This document shows positions 11,175-61,716 of a DNA stretch of 61,716 bases, piece by piece (the stretch's first letter is position 1; each line of letters opens with the position of its first letter). Where the stretch lies: assembly GCF_000745455.1 (NCBI RefSeq), contig NZ_JQJI01000011.1, forward strand, positions 1 to 61,716. The letters run 5' to 3'. Position numbers and translations under genes: made by a program. The stretch is from Mesoaciditoga lauensis cd-1655R = DSM 25116 (GTDB taxonomy: Bacteria; Thermotogota; Thermotogae; Mesoaciditogales; Mesoaciditogaceae). The notes under the pieces were generated by a model. That model had not been told where the DNA came from. It searched no databases and worked only from the letters and a program-made list of their open reading frames with translations.

Positions 11175-11321
11175 GAAAACCGAGATCTCTTGATGTGCTT
11201 CAAGTTTAAGAAATTAATCAGAATAAAAATCCATTGTTCAATGGAATTTGTGGGCCTTTATCAAATTGTGTGTATCAACGGGAACAAGTCTCTCTCAAAA
11301 TTTGTGTATCTATCATCAAAT

Positions 11322-11344
11322 CCGGGCCGTCAGGCCCGGTTTTT
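11322..11344 (+). terminator. CCGGGCC hairpin terminator (cassette copy 3)
   Basis: The stem CCGGGCC-GTCA-GGCCCGG followed by TTTTT is nearly identical to the one at 502-524 and terminates transcription from the lipoprotein gene at 10689. The preceding 11175-11321 contains IS256-end-like sequence and no gene. Confidence 0.8.
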
Positions 11345-11538
11345 CATTCCATTCATCACTTTTTTATCGCTCGCTTGTGAACCGCGTCGAGGAAGTGTTT
11401 TATCTTTTCCAGATCATTTGAAAAGGCTATTAAGTCATCTGATGATAGGTCTTTAAGCTTTTCAACAGTTTCAAATATATTGAAGTTTTTTGGGTTTATC
11501 ACAAGCCTAAGCGGTGCGAACATCTTATTGTGCTTCAT
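11341..11538 (-). pseudogene. Decayed copy of the small K/E-rich protein gene
   Basis: The minus strand encodes a 60-residue remnant (11356-11538) with APLRLVINPKNFNIFE and LIAFSNDLEKIKHFLDAVH. It is clearly homologous to the 88-residue protein at 510-776. The N-terminal K/E-rich part is lost, and a premature TGA removes the last residues that end in NRA in the other copies. The region 11540-11700 upstream has no gene. Confidence 0.7.
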
Positions 11539-14541: not shown

Positions 14542-14562
14542 CCGGGCCGTCAGGCCCGGTTT
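14542..14562 (+). terminator. CCGGGCC hairpin terminator (cassette copy 4)
   Basis: The stem CCGGGCC-GTCA-GGCCCGG followed by TTTCTT ends the GntR/ABC operon. It is the same hairpin as at 502 and 11322. Confidence 0.75.
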
Positions 14563-14735
14563 CTTATTCCATTCATCGTCTCTTTTATTGCTCGTTCGTG
14601 AATCGCGGCGAGGAAGTGTTTTATCTTTTCCAGATCATTTGAAAAGGCTATCAAGCCTTCGGCTGATGCGCCCTTAAGCTCTTCAACAGTTTTAGATATG
14701 TCGAAGTTTTTTTGGTTTATCACACTTCATCCACA
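14560..14735 (-). pseudogene. Truncated copy of the small K/E-rich protein gene
   Basis: The minus strand retains the C-terminal part of the 510-776 protein. The end reads AAIHERAIKETMNGIRNRA before a TGA lying in the hairpin, and upstream codons match LKELKGASAEGLIAFSNDLEKIKHFL-like sequence. The 5' part is cut off near 14735. It has no start codon. Confidence 0.65.
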
Positions 14736-16559: not shown

Positions 16560-16925
16560 TAACTCATGTTGTGCATGAACACTACGAAAGGTATTACAAG
16601 AAGCATTAATCTCCCTATGAGAGCATGTGAGCCACATTTGACGATACTTTTAAAAACCTGCTTTCCAAGCAGTCAAGGCATTTTTTTCGAAGCACTTGTC
16701 AGAACAGATTCGCTCTCTTATCCATCTTACGACTCAAAAAACGAGGCACGCTCAGACACTCATCCATGAGTGCTTCGCCTTCTCAACACATCCGTGTGTT
16801 TTCCAACCTCGTTTTTATGAGTCTTCAGAGGGAAAGCTCGTATGTTCTGACAAGTACTTCGAGGATTAGATTTAATTTCTTTTTGATTAACTTCGTGCTT
16901 TGTAGTTGCTTTTCACGCGTTTTTA
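16560..16925 (+). repeat. Family 1 structured repeat, copy A
   Basis: The palindromic core is 16687-16862. Outer arms TCGAAGCACTTGTCAGAACA and TGTTCTGACAAGTACTTCGA pair with one mismatch. Inside lie a middle stem (GACTCAAAAAACGAGG with CCTCGTTTTTATGAGTC), the hairpin CACTC..GAGTG and the hairpin AACACA-TCCG-TGTGTT. Conserved flanks extend on both sides, beginning with a TTGTGCATGAACACTACG relative of the GTGCGTGAA motif at 16571. I see no gene in 16526-17129. Confidence 0.8.
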
Positions 16926-17129
16926 GTCTCATTTTAGTTAATTTGGTTATTTGCAGTGTTTGGTATTGATGATGCTTTTTAACATCAAAGCACAATGTAA
17001 GATATTTAAAAAGTCAACCAATTGCTAACTACTCCCTGTTTACCATTCACTTTTCGTTTCAATTTAATCCCAATTTGTCTCATTCACTTTACCGTTTTGT
17101 GAGGTTTTTTTACGATACGATTTGAACAC

Positions 17130-26499: not shown

Positions 26500-26862
26500 G
26501 TGCATGTGCGTCGATGCTACAAAGCATTTCAAAAAAGGATTAGTTCTCACCCTCGAAGTACTTGTCAGAACATATGAGCTCCCATCTGGAGATTCAAAAT
26601 ATGAGGTTGAGAAGCACAGGACGTGCCGAGAAAGCGAAGCACTCACGGACAAGTGTCTGAGCGTGCCTCATATTTTGAATCGTAAGATGGAAAAAAGAGC
26701 GAATCCGTTCTGACAGGACTTCGAAAAAATTGCCTTGGGCGCTTGAAAAGCGGATCCTAAATCAAAAACGTTGTACTCAAATGTTGCTTGCATGTTTTCA
26801 TAAAAAATTTTTGTAATGTCTCTTGTAATATTTTTCATAATGTTCACGCACAGCATGAGTTA
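26500..26862 (-). repeat. Family 1 structured repeat, copy B
   Basis: The core is 26553-26724, in opposite orientation to copies A, C, E and F. The arm TCGAAGTACTTGTCAGAAC pairs with GTTCTGACAGGACTTCGA. The inner hairpin reads GGCAC-GTCCT-GTGC in the copy A orientation. Both borders carry a relative of the GTGCGTGAA motif (26506 and, inverted, about 26845). Short open frames here (e.g. 26498-26713) come from the repeat and are not convincing genes. Confidence 0.8.
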
Positions 26863-26867
26863 AATCC

Positions 26868-27073
26868 TTCGGAATTATTCCCCCCCTTTGTCGGCTTCGC
26901 CGACACTTCCCCCACAAGCGGGGACAGACTTTTCAATTTGGAAAGTAGCTCTCTTGATTCTCTCCCAAAACTGGGAGGAGTGACAACGTAGTTGACGAGG
27001 AGGGTTCATCTTTCCTTTTGGTTTCAATGCCAACGGCTTTCCAATTGATTTTTTAATCTTCACGCACAACGTG
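26868..27073 (-). repeat. Family 2 GC-rich repeat abutting copy B of family 1
   Basis: On the minus strand it begins ACGTTGTGCGTGAAGATTAA near 27073, continues ATCAATTGGAAAG, and includes the hairpin GTCGGCTTCGCCGAC (26889-26903). It breaks off at AGGATTTAA near 26868, exactly where the border motif of family 1 copy B starts. The far end present at 14755 and 60595 is therefore missing, consistent with one element having entered or replaced part of the other. Confidence 0.75.
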
Positions 27074-27162
27074 AGAATCCTTGTTCGATTTAATGTGGTA
27101 AACTAATGGTAAACCAAGGTATTTCACTTTTTCTTTTAAAAGGAAATGGGAGGATGAACAAA

Positions 27163-45762: not shown

Positions 45763-45992
45763 TCGAAGTACTTGTCAGAACGGATTCGCTCTTTTTTCCA
45801 TCTTACGATTCAAAATATGAGGCACGCTCAGACACTCGTCCATGAGTGCTTCGCTTTCTCGGCACGTCATGTGCCTCTCAACCTCATATTTCGAACCTTC
45901 AGACGGAGAGCTCATATGTTCTGACAAGTACTTCGAGGGTGGGATCTAATCTCTTTTTGAAATACTTTGTAACATTGACGCACAATGTGAGT
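45763..45992 (+). repeat. Family 1 structured repeat, copy C
   Basis: The core is 45763-45936. The arm TCGAAGTACTTGTCAGAAC is matched perfectly by GTTCTGACAAGTACTTCGA. The middle stem ends ATGAGG/CCTCAT, whereas copy A has ACGAGG/CCTCGT. The two inner hairpins are CACTC-GTCCAT-GAGTG and GGCAC-GTCAT-GTGCC. The right border carries the inverted motif TTGACGCACAATGTGAG (45974-45990). The following 45993-46245 has no convincing gene. Confidence 0.85.
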
Positions 45993-47164: not shown

Positions 47165-47465
47165 CAATTAAGGTGCGTGAAGATAAAAAAGTGTTGTATA
47201 CTTGCGATTAAGGAGATCATTATGCACTTGACTCAAGAACTCATAGAAGGCTGTCAAAACATATGAGCTCCCCATCTGGAAGTTCAAAATATGAGGTTGA
47301 GAGGCACAGGACGTGCCGAGAAAGCGAAGCACTCACGGACGAGTGTCTGAGCGTGCCTCGTATTTTGAATTGTAAAATGGAAAAAGGAGCGAATCCGTTC
47401 TGACAGGACTTCGAAAAAAATTGCCTTAGTTGTTAGATTATCACTTTCACGCACACCAGTAGTTA
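47165..47465 (-). repeat. Family 1 structured repeat, copy D
   Basis: The core is about 47245-47414, in the same orientation as copy B. The right arm GTTCTGACAGGACTTCGA is intact, the left arm (AGAAGGCTGTCAAAAC) is degenerate. The inner hairpin reads GGCAC-GTCCT-GTGCC in the copy A orientation. Border motifs GGTGCGTGAAGATAAAA (47167) and, inverted, TTTCACGCACACC (47448) bracket it. No gene lies between 47119 and 47595. Confidence 0.8.
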
Positions 47466-57991: not shown

Positions 57992-58905
57992 AAAAGATAA
58001 CGTTATTGTGTGGTCAAAAGAACGAGAATTTCGGAGAAAAGCTCACTTATTCCCAAACAATTGAGATATTCAAAGATAAGGATGTAAAAATCTACCTTCC
58101 AACCACTTTGAAAGAAGCATTTAAGGCTGTTTTCTTTTCAGACGCCGTTATCTTTGCCGGAAGAAGAATGATGGAAAATATCGACTCGTTGGATATAATA
58201 GGAATGGCACTCGAGCTGGAAAAGCCCATTTTTCTCTTTGGAGTTGGATTGGGCGAAATAAGAAACAAAGGACTAAAAAGATTCTCCACAATCTTGATGA
58301 GCCCTTTAACAGAGGGATTTCTAACAGATTATCCGTCAACACGATGGGCACGCCTCTGGGCTGGTAATCGCGTAAAAGTGGGAGCCGATCTGTCACATGT
58401 ATATCTTTTAAGCCATGCAAAGCGTGGCAAAAACAAATTTGCCGTTTTCTCCCCAAGGCATAACGGAGCATTAAGAATGTATGAGGAGCTCAAATGGTTA
58501 CCAGCTATAGATGCAAGGATAGTGGTTGCAAATAAAGAAGACTCCAAAGCGGCAATAGAAGTTTCACGACATTTGAAAACGGAAGAAATAGTTATAGTAT
58601 CGGAATCAACGGATGTGATGGAAGTGGTATCAAATGCGAAATTCGTCATTTCCGAAAGATTTCACGTTTCTCTCACAGCAGAAAGCTTTGGAGTGCCCTT
58701 CATACATGTTGGAAGGAGAGCTATGAGATATTTCGGAAAAGATTTCGAAAACAACTTTTCTCTTCCAGATGAAGTTGAAATGGCGCTCTCATTCTCAAAA
58801 ATTGGAGAAAGCGCACCATCGTATTATGAAAAATTCAACATTCGCGTGAAAGAAAGATACGAAGAGATGCTCAAAGGATTGGATTTATTCTTATTGAAGA
58901 TATAG
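57988..58905 (+). CDS. Polysaccharide pyruvyl transferase family (CsaB-like)
   Basis: A 305-residue protein. TTG 57988 follows AAGGTGGGAAAGA, with a four-base overlap with the peptidase. The two-domain Rossmann-like layout and the stretches FGVGLGEIRNKGLKRF, RLWAGNRVKVGADLSHVYLL and FVISERFHVSLTAESFGVPFIHVG (the CsaB/WcaK pattern 'vi.SeRfH..l.a...gvP') point to the pyruvyl-transferase superfamily. CsaB ketalises a cell-wall polymer so that S-layer (SLH) proteins can attach. In a toga-bearing bacterium that would fit outer-envelope anchoring, but the precise acceptor is not visible. Confidence 0.78.
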   Translation: MKKITLLCGQKNENFGEKLTYSQTIEIFKDKDVKIYLPTTLKEAFKAVFFSDAVIFAGRRMMENIDSLDIIGMALELEKPIFLFGVGLGEIRNKGLKRFSTILMSPLTEGFLTDYPSTRWARLWAGNRVKVGADLSHVYLLSHAKRGKNKFAVFSPRHNGALRMYEELKWLPAIDARIVVANKEDSKAAIEVSRHLKTEEIVIVSESTDVMEVVSNAKFVISERFHVSLTAESFGVPFIHVGRRAMRYFGKDFENNFSLPDEVEMALSFSKIGESAPSYYEKFNIRVKERYEEMLKGLDLFLLKI

Positions 58906-60032: not shown

Positions 60033-60275
60033 TCGAAGCGCTTGCCAACACGAATTCACTCTTTTACCCATCTTACGACTCAAAAAACGAGGCACGCTCA
60101 GACACTCGTCCGTGAGTGCTTCGCTTTCTCAACACATCCATGTGTTTCCCAACCTCGTTTTTATGAGTCCACAGATGGAGAGTTCATAAGTGTTGGCAAG
60201 CGCTCCGAAGCTGGGGGGAAGAAGGAAACGTCCTGTGCCTCCAACTCTGTTATTTCGCATCTTGTATGGCGTCTT
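60033..60275 (+). repeat. Family 1 structured repeat, copy E
   Basis: The core is 60033-60208. The outer arms TCGAAGCGCTTGCCAACAC and GTGTTGGCAAGCGCTCCGA differ from copy C in sequence but pair equally well. The inner hairpins are CACTC-GTCCGT-GAGTG and AACACA-TCCA-TGTGTT. About 65 bases after the core are repeated after copy F. No gene is present. Confidence 0.85.
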
Positions 60276-60337: not shown

Positions 60338-60580
60338 TCGAAACATCTGCCAACACGGATTCACTCTTTTATCCATCTTACGACTCAAAAAACGAGGCAC
60401 GCTCAGACACTCGTCCATGAGTGCTTCGCTTTCTCAATACGTCCGTGTGTTTCCCAACCTCGTTTTTTGAGTCTCCAGATGGTGAGTTCATAAGTGTTGG
60501 CAAGCGCTCCGAAGCTGGGGGGAAGAAGGAAACGTCCTGTGCCTTCAACTCTGTTATTTCGCATCTTGTAGGGCGTTCTT
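60338..60580 (+). repeat. Family 1 structured repeat, copy F (tandem with E)
   Basis: The core is 60338-60512. The right arm is the same as in copy E; the left arm TCGAAACATCTGCCAACAC has diverged. The inner hairpin AATAC-GTCC-GTGTT keeps pairing through a T-G wobble. It is a direct repeat of copy E at a distance of about 304 bp. Confidence 0.85.
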
Positions 60581-60594
60581 ATACTCAAATTATG

Positions 60595-60893
60595 CAAGTT
60601 TGAATATGAAACCTTCAAGCCTTTGAATATAGCTTAAATCCTTTGAAATTATTCCCCCCTTTGTCGGCTTCGCCGACACTTCCCCCATAAATTGGGGCAG
60701 ACTTTTCAATTTGGAAAGAGGCTCTCTTGATTCTCCCAAAACTGGCAGAGCCCCCTTCGGCAGCTCTGCTGCCACTTCCCCCGCAAGCGGGGCAAAATAT
60801 CCATAAAATGGCGAGGAGGGTTCATCTTTCCTTTTGGTTTCAATGCCAACGGCTTTCCAATTGATTTTCTTAATCTTCACGCACAACCCCATT
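60595..60893 (-). repeat. Family 2 GC-rich repeat element
   Basis: On the minus strand it runs from TTGTGCGTGAAGATTAAG (near 60890) through ATCAATTGGAAAG and the hairpin GTCGGCTTCGCCGAC (60663-60677) to TCAAACTTGCATAATTTGAG (near 60590). It contains an extra GC-rich insertion at about 60750-60790. An open frame covering it (60590-60892) reflects the repeat. Confidence 0.75.
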
Positions 60894-61445: not shown

Positions 61446-61500
61446 GTGAATGACGGATAATCTTCTCAAACACCTTATCAATTTCAAAGTGGGTGAGAAG

Positions 61501-61716
61501 ATGAAAGAGCTGAAAATGAATGAGAGAAAAAAGCTGGTGAATATCTTGCATAAGCGTTATGTGAGAGCATCTAAGAAGGATAAAACAAAGATATTGGATG
61601 AGTTCATTCAAACAACGGGTTATAATCGAAGTTACGCGGCTCATATTTTGAAAACGCATGTCGAAAGAGCAAAAACTAAGAGATTATCCAATCATAAGGC
61701 AGGAAGAAAGAAAATT
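61501..61716 (+). CDS. Integrase-type transposase, N-terminal part (cut by window end)
   Basis: The first 72 codons of a longer gene; ATG 61501 follows GTGGGTGAGAAG. The N-terminus reads MKELKMNERKKLV, then HKRYVRASKKDKTKILDEFI and TGYNRSYAAHILK, then a basic stretch (HKAGRKKI). The pattern 'Y..A.KK.K..ILDEF...TGYNR.YA...L' is the helix-turn-helix start of rve-type (IS481/ISNCY-like) transposases. The catalytic DDE domain lies beyond the window. It differs from the IS256-type element at the left edge. Confidence 0.75.
   Translation, partial: MKELKMNERKKLVNILHKRYVRASKKDKTKILDEFIQTTGYNRSYAAHILKTHVERAKTKRLSNHKAGRKKI

Follow-up and report, generated by a model that had tools for sequence, protein, structure and literature searches.

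A dispersed palindromic element related to the TwoAYGGAY RNA motif is carried by miniature transposons in a Thermotogota genome and may bind CsrA

The genome studied here contains a dispersed multi-stem element in at least 184 copies, and the element is real, covarying and RNA-strand-specific. Six of the copies lie in the window, by which we mean the whole 61,716-nucleotide stretch of DNA analysed, part of a Mesoaciditogaceae-like draft genome of 2.17 Mb in 65 contigs. We propose that each copy is a structured RNA gene in which the outer and middle stems would close a junction carrying two hairpins, with GGA displayed in both hairpin loops (AYGGAY or AGGAY) and a tandem G-A internal loop in the second hairpin. 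This RNA, of the TwoAYGGAY kind, would be the cargo of miniature inverted-repeat transposons (MITEs) without their own transposase, mobilised in trans by an IS701/IS4-like DDE element that shares their ends, leaving 7-bp duplications. The AYGGAY strand would be transcribed and its paired GGA loops would bind CsrA, so that the copies might jointly serve as decoys for this protein, or else be selfish cargo adapted to it. We have little doubt about the anatomy and ancestry of the element, while the proposal as a whole, including CsrA binding by the loops, stands in our judgement at about an even chance.

In the window, the entire RNA is found on the plus strand at 26553..26724 (copy B) and 47245..47414 (copy D), and on the minus strand at 16687..16862 (copy A, with outer stem, middle stem and two GGA hairpins), 45763..45936 (copy C, the focus of the preliminary description), 60033..60208 (copy E) and 60338..60512 (copy F). 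All six copies and the stems quoted for them were present where they had been described. Model R1, trained solely on 12 sequences from the family of the window, recognised every core at 101-110 bits: A at 16731-16823 (109.0 bits), B at 26591-26681 (101.2 bits), C at 45807-45897 (106.5 bits), D at 47281-47371 (106.7 bits), E at 60077-60169 (110.4 bits) and F at 60382-60473 (103.8 bits). A repeat search found the window copies to be 60-95% identical and in both orientations, with E and F in tandem 305 bp apart.

The extent of about 175 bp originally given for the element holds for the RNA, but the RNA often lies within a larger transposon-like unit. Copy A sits in a complete miniature transposon of 439 bp (16563..17001, minus strand) with inverted ends CTCATGTTGTGCATGAAC / ..AAAGCACAATGTAAG and the flanks ATATTAA / ATATTTA; immediately 3' of its RNA is a terminator-like hairpin, CTGCTTGGAAAGCAG + GTTTTTAAAA, at 16658..16672 on the minus strand. 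The transposon bearing copy B has its left terminal inverted repeat at 26834..26859 (minus strand), and that bearing copy C has its right terminal inverted repeat, CTCACATTGTGCGTCAATGTTACAAA, at 45966..45991 (minus strand) and a non-canonical left end. The element around copy D is degraded. Another repeat family in the window (27050-27075, 26872-27067 and 60645-60868) also finishes with an inverted end of this kind, CTCACGTTGTGCGTGAAGATTAAAAA. We also noted a 182-bp repeat at 502-683, 11321-11502 and 14542-14723, 71-85% identical and unrelated to the RNA, and, at 61500-61716, the first part of an ORF that is truncated where the window stops and that resembles, on visual inspection, the N-terminus of an integrase-type transposase.

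The preliminary description had proposed that genomic copies be collected, and the 33-nt motif of inner hairpin 1 gave 184 matches genome-wide (91 on the plus and 93 on the minus strand) against none for the reversed motif used as a control in the same genome. The six copies on which the element was originally defined are thus a small sample, and since several contigs end in or near copies, the true copy number may exceed 184. For analysis, 137 distinct copies were extracted from this genome. Related genomes gave 6, 5 and 9 matches to the hairpin 1 motif, with no match in any of the four g2 genomes (g2 being a genus); exact-pattern matches in named contigs were all from Thermotogota (labelled Mesoaciditoga sp. 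or Thermotogae bacterium). Model R1 found copies in 10 of 103 genomes of the class, including at least 37 divergent ones in G008, and the sequence of hairpin 1 is very constant across three genera.

Copies B, C and D form class 1 and copies E and F class 2; the stems of the two classes differ, including the outer stem, while the fold is alike, and copies from two other genera share this layout. Copy A combines the outer stem of class 1 with the hairpins of class 2. Class 2 copies are often in tandem, at a spacing of about 300 bp. A third RNA class is represented by locus L153 (1713-1803), with P1 AACAGAG/CTCTGTT and both loops AGGAC, and class 2 units seem to have a half copy of this type as their tail. 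An additional hairpin module, TTCGCAGCTACCGCTTTGGTCGTAAAAGCGAG.., follows hairpin 2 at L036, L042, L045, L139, L207 and L239 and is common to several genera.

Copy C folds at -82.7 kcal/mol (z -10.4) on the plus strand and at -96.5 kcal/mol (z -12.4) on the minus strand, and none of its shuffled sequences folded as well as the native one on either strand. The paired changes reported in three helices are real: inner hairpin 2 is GGCAC/GTGCC or AACAC/GTGTT, the outer stem TACTTGTCAGAAC or CGCTTGCCAACAC, and the middle stem ATGAGG/CCTCAT or ACGAGG/CCTCGT. One reading did not survive, because the plus-strand AATAC/GTGTT of copy F, taken at first for a wobble, is a C.A mismatch when read on the AYGGAY strand, so that copy F gives no evidence of wobble on the functional strand.

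Over 71 distinct sequences, paired cells amounted to 90.5%, against 69.6% when shuffled and 34-55% when slid. Changes on both sides were seen in 29 of the 31 pairs. A tree-based null, in which substitutions were shuffled along a FastTree tree by a custom script in the manner of R-scape, left 12 of the 31 structure pairs at E<0.05, and among all column pairs seven were significant, six of them inside the structure; the alignment (A3) was itself fitted to the structure model, which is a caveat on these pair statistics. The covariation check that had been suggested thus gave a clear signal with relatives included, but it is strong only once copies from G008 and genus g10 are added to the alignment, and own-type copies alone yield one passing pair in 63, since the two classes form a single deep split. 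RNAalifold run on the mixed-class alignment returned a wrong fold, owing to class-specific indels, and was set aside.

The strand was judged from the balance of G-U and A-C cells. G-U pairs outnumber A-C on the AYGGAY strand by 151 to 27 in the 71-sequence set and by 192 to 95 among own-type copies, an excess that is moderate in a sign test by pair (p about 0.05-0.16), and on this basis the AYGGAY strand was taken as the RNA. Arm repair in DNA predicts perfect complements and no strand asymmetry, so that the tree null and the G-U excess favour an RNA over palindrome repair at the DNA level. They bear out the earlier claim of compensatory change under selection on the fold, and count against the templated palindrome repair that had been offered beside it.

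TwoAYGGAY is motif RF01731 of Rfam (Weinberg et al. 2010, PMC2864571); its listed sources are human gut, gamma-Proteobacteria and Clostridiales, with Thermotogota not among them. Rfam at gathering score reported SRP and tRNAs only on the window, RF01731 was unlisted up to E=5 for copy C alone, and none appeared in the genome at E<=0.01 with strict filters. In G043, a genome of another family, the inner part of the element recurs with one extra base pair in hairpin 1 and with hairpin 2 changed to AAAAC/GTTTT, its loop retained. At lax thresholds Rfam identifies these loci as RF01731, and two copies near them exceed the RF01731 gathering score. In the window, copies E (60061-60185, 27.2 bits) and F (60366-60489, 24.5 bits) match the whole RF01731 model on the minus strand, short of its gathering cut-off of 43 bits, which g10 relatives reach (50.8 bits in G043, for example). 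Among the 103 class genomes RF01731 is restricted to genus g10, at 2 to 19 copies per genome. The reverse search shows common ancestry by profile: R1 scored G043 copies at 46-59 bits and matched g10 loci above the RF01731 cut-off on the same strand (27.2 bits at L251, 28.8 at L256 and 29.8 at L266), and at L262 it gave 25.8 bits at the locus over the cut-off and 57.8 bits for a second copy.

Two hairpins with AYGGAY-type loops within an outer stem are kept across classes and genera. The two tandem G-A pairs in one stem that mark TwoAYGGAY (PMC4333381) are reduced here to one, the second being replaced by ordinary pairs, while g10 members have a sequence compatible with two. Given the scores below the gathering cut-off and the absence of the second tandem G-A, we treat the element as a divergent relative of TwoAYGGAY and not as a certified member. 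The preliminary statement that no named family has this layout is accordingly superseded by the whole-model matches and the reverse R1 search, even though the window copies score under the gathering threshold.

The carrier was characterised from 49 sampled copies, which lie between inverted ends CTCAYRTTGTGCGTSAAYRTTAC in units of 265-465 bp; in the window, such ends are absent or degraded at the left of copy C and at copy D. Target duplications have a fixed length of 7 bp and are exact in 16 of the 49, against 0.1 expected. Thirty-one units of about 361 bp could be aligned, and at <=2 mismatches the genome holds 141 such ends. The units have no transposase of their own, and autonomous partners with the same ends exist: several DDE transposase elements with ends CTCACGTTGTGCGTGRA occur in this genome, all of them interrupted where a contig stops (L303-L309, L312), and in the sister genome G001 the same end type flanks a DDE transposase gene at L108 (PF01609, E 8e-14), a locus itself hit by a small transposon. 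This transposase is nearest IS4/IS701 in NCBIfam, and as it falls under the curated cut-offs of all IS4/IS701 models, we name the partner only 'IS701/IS4-like'. L207 contains a transposon of 717 bp whose outer palindrome is similar and whose duplications read TTGAAAC; model R1 does not match it.

Mobility is borne out by the 7-bp duplications and by comparison with G001. Copy D and its surroundings are missing from the same place in G001, where the flanks are 93% identical, and one further site also lacks the insert there; no clean empty site with a single target duplication was recovered in this comparison. At L333 (G001 C23, about 58143-58277), the transposon present at the same site as our L017 has lost the RNA from its middle, leaving remnants of the outer stem, so that individual copies are dispensable. 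Presence, absence and internal deletion together indicate that the units behave like MITEs in both movement and decay. Within complete class 1 units, private substitutions ran at about 2-2.5 per 100 site-copies in the RNA and 3-5 in the rest, a comparison that is biased, and only suggestive of lower substitution in the RNA part, because copies were collected by that part. The units that hold the RNA in g10 genomes end differently, with TGTCCAATTAGTAAAG in G015 and CAGACTGTTGACAAA in G053, as read by eye and with a simple inverted-repeat scan, and these elements gave no match to plasmids or phages. TwoAYGGAY units with CAGACTG ends at L263, L275, L277 and L280 (G053, G073) adjoin terminator hairpins; the sequence that flanks these units on the outside repeats the terminator arm in inverted orientation, an odd arrangement for an insertion.

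GGA occupies the hairpin A loop in 146 of 152 copies and the hairpin B loop in 148 of 152, bearing in mind that the pattern used to search for copies included hairpin B but not hairpin A. Of the 152 copies, 149 retain the tandem G-A. The hairpin B loop is AYGGAY in nearly all copies, and that of hairpin A is AYGGAY in class 2 and AGGAY in class 1. Loops in contexts like ACAGGAUGU and ACAUGGAUGU come close to the CsrA rule, and GGA in hairpin loops is what a CsrA-binding small RNA presents. In a wider set of 74 sequences GGA was found in hairpin A of 66, in hairpin B of 61 and in both of 58. The genome encodes CsrA (G000:C64:5203-5358, 76.7 bits; MLVLRRKIGEGIIIGKN...), and a CsrA match was obtained in 8 of the 11 genomes tested; the three without a match include the copy-rich G008 and are perhaps incomplete. 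That TwoAYGGAY RNAs bind CsrA is a published prediction of Gardner and co-workers, who also drew attention to the tandem G-As of the motif (PMC4333381). Since most relatives show GGA in each of their two loops and the genome encodes CsrA, a CsrA-binding RNA as transposon cargo is the reading we favour; that this RNA binds the CsrA of its own genome we consider possible, at somewhat less than an even chance.

Copies are mostly intergenic, 12 of 122 overlapping an ORF of more than 120 aa, almost always a short one (122-184 aa). By simple ORF calls, 31 class 2 copies flanked by tandem genes have the AYGGAY strand antisense to those genes and 2 have it sense; for class 1 the counts are 19 and 14, with no bias. 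The class 2 orientation may come from insertion in a preferred direction, or from selection that keeps AYGGAY loops out of messenger RNA. Promoter scans upstream of the copies were at or below chance level and gave no good promoter, and a hairpin is present downstream of the RNA with a T-tail that is not kept in all copies; a terminator or promoter role for all copies was therefore dropped. Transcription of the AYGGAY strand is, as we see it, slightly favoured.

It could be argued that the copies are ordinary palindromic MITEs whose fold is a property of the DNA, a cruciform or hairpin used in transposition and maintained by arm-to-arm repair, with no RNA function. The clear anatomy of ends and 7-bp duplications would suit this, as would the weak own-type covariation and the survival of ends in G001 after the core has vanished. 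It leaves unexplained the asymmetry between G-U and A-C, and the unpaired GGA loops and tandem G-A, which lie beyond the reach of arm repair and are among the most constant parts; nor would it predict a match to an RNA family or the same RNA within differently ended elements of other Thermotogota. We regard it as unlikely. We hold it to be very improbable that the complementary strand is the working one and forms 3'-end structures (terminators, processing or stability elements) of flanking genes. That strand does fold well, and in class 2 it would be read with the operon; the wobble pairs and the Rfam strand favour the AYGGAY strand, though, class 1 is unbiased, and the orientation counts rest on simple ORF calls.

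A structured RNA on MITEs might also do something other than bind CsrA, for instance aid its own transposon or bind another protein. Its association with several transposon types, the constancy of hairpin 1 across genera and the genomes without a CsrA match are compatible with such a role, but the RNA itself has no linked transposase gene, and the loops fit the CsrA rule in a set of genomes that mostly encode CsrA. This alternative appears rather doubtful to us, and a CsrA-binding RNA carried by MITEs remains our preferred reading.

TwoAYGGAY has been a motif of unknown function since 2010 (PMC2864571), and Rfam types RF01731 as a cis-regulator. With at least 184 copies in one genome and relatives on differently ended mobile units, whether the family is transposon cargo or a cis-regulator becomes testable, as does its binding to CsrA, and a deep covarying alignment is now available from a new phylum. 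More speculatively, TwoAYGGAY-type RNAs in general might be transposon cargo. On this view a CsrA-binding RNA, selfish or domesticated, would have been picked up in Thermotogota by three or more different kinds of miniature transposon and multiplied into the hundreds, and a mobile-element family would thereby titrate a global regulator; we put this forward tentatively and think it somewhat unlikely. The open-licence literature yielded no paper linking MITEs with TwoAYGGAY or with bacterial CsrA.

Compared with known systems, the element is closest to TwoAYGGAY, with which it shares the outer stem, the junction, two AYGGAY-type hairpins and a tandem G-A in the second hairpin, on the same strand and in the same order. 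It differs in scoring under 43 bits, in retaining one tandem G-A where RF01731 has two, in a first hairpin that often has the 5-nt loop AGGAY, and in its location in MITEs, in at least 184 copies, in a Thermotogota host. Bacterial MITEs with palindromic cores include Correia, ERIC, RUP and similar elements. Like these, the present units are short, non-coding and intergenic, with inverted ends, target duplications and a high copy number; unlike them, they have 7-bp duplications, an IS701/IS4-like partner and a core that is a recognisable RNA family, found also in elements with other ends. The likeness to IS701/IS4 insertion sequences lies in the DDE_Tnp_1 transposase of the partner element, whose ends match those of the MITEs, and the difference in a transposase that scores below the curated family cut-offs. 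As in the CsrA-sequestering sRNAs CsrB/CsrC and RsmX/Y/Z, GGA is presented in hairpin loops, and in pairs, but by many short, dispersed two-loop genes, where those systems use a single gene or a handful with numerous loops.
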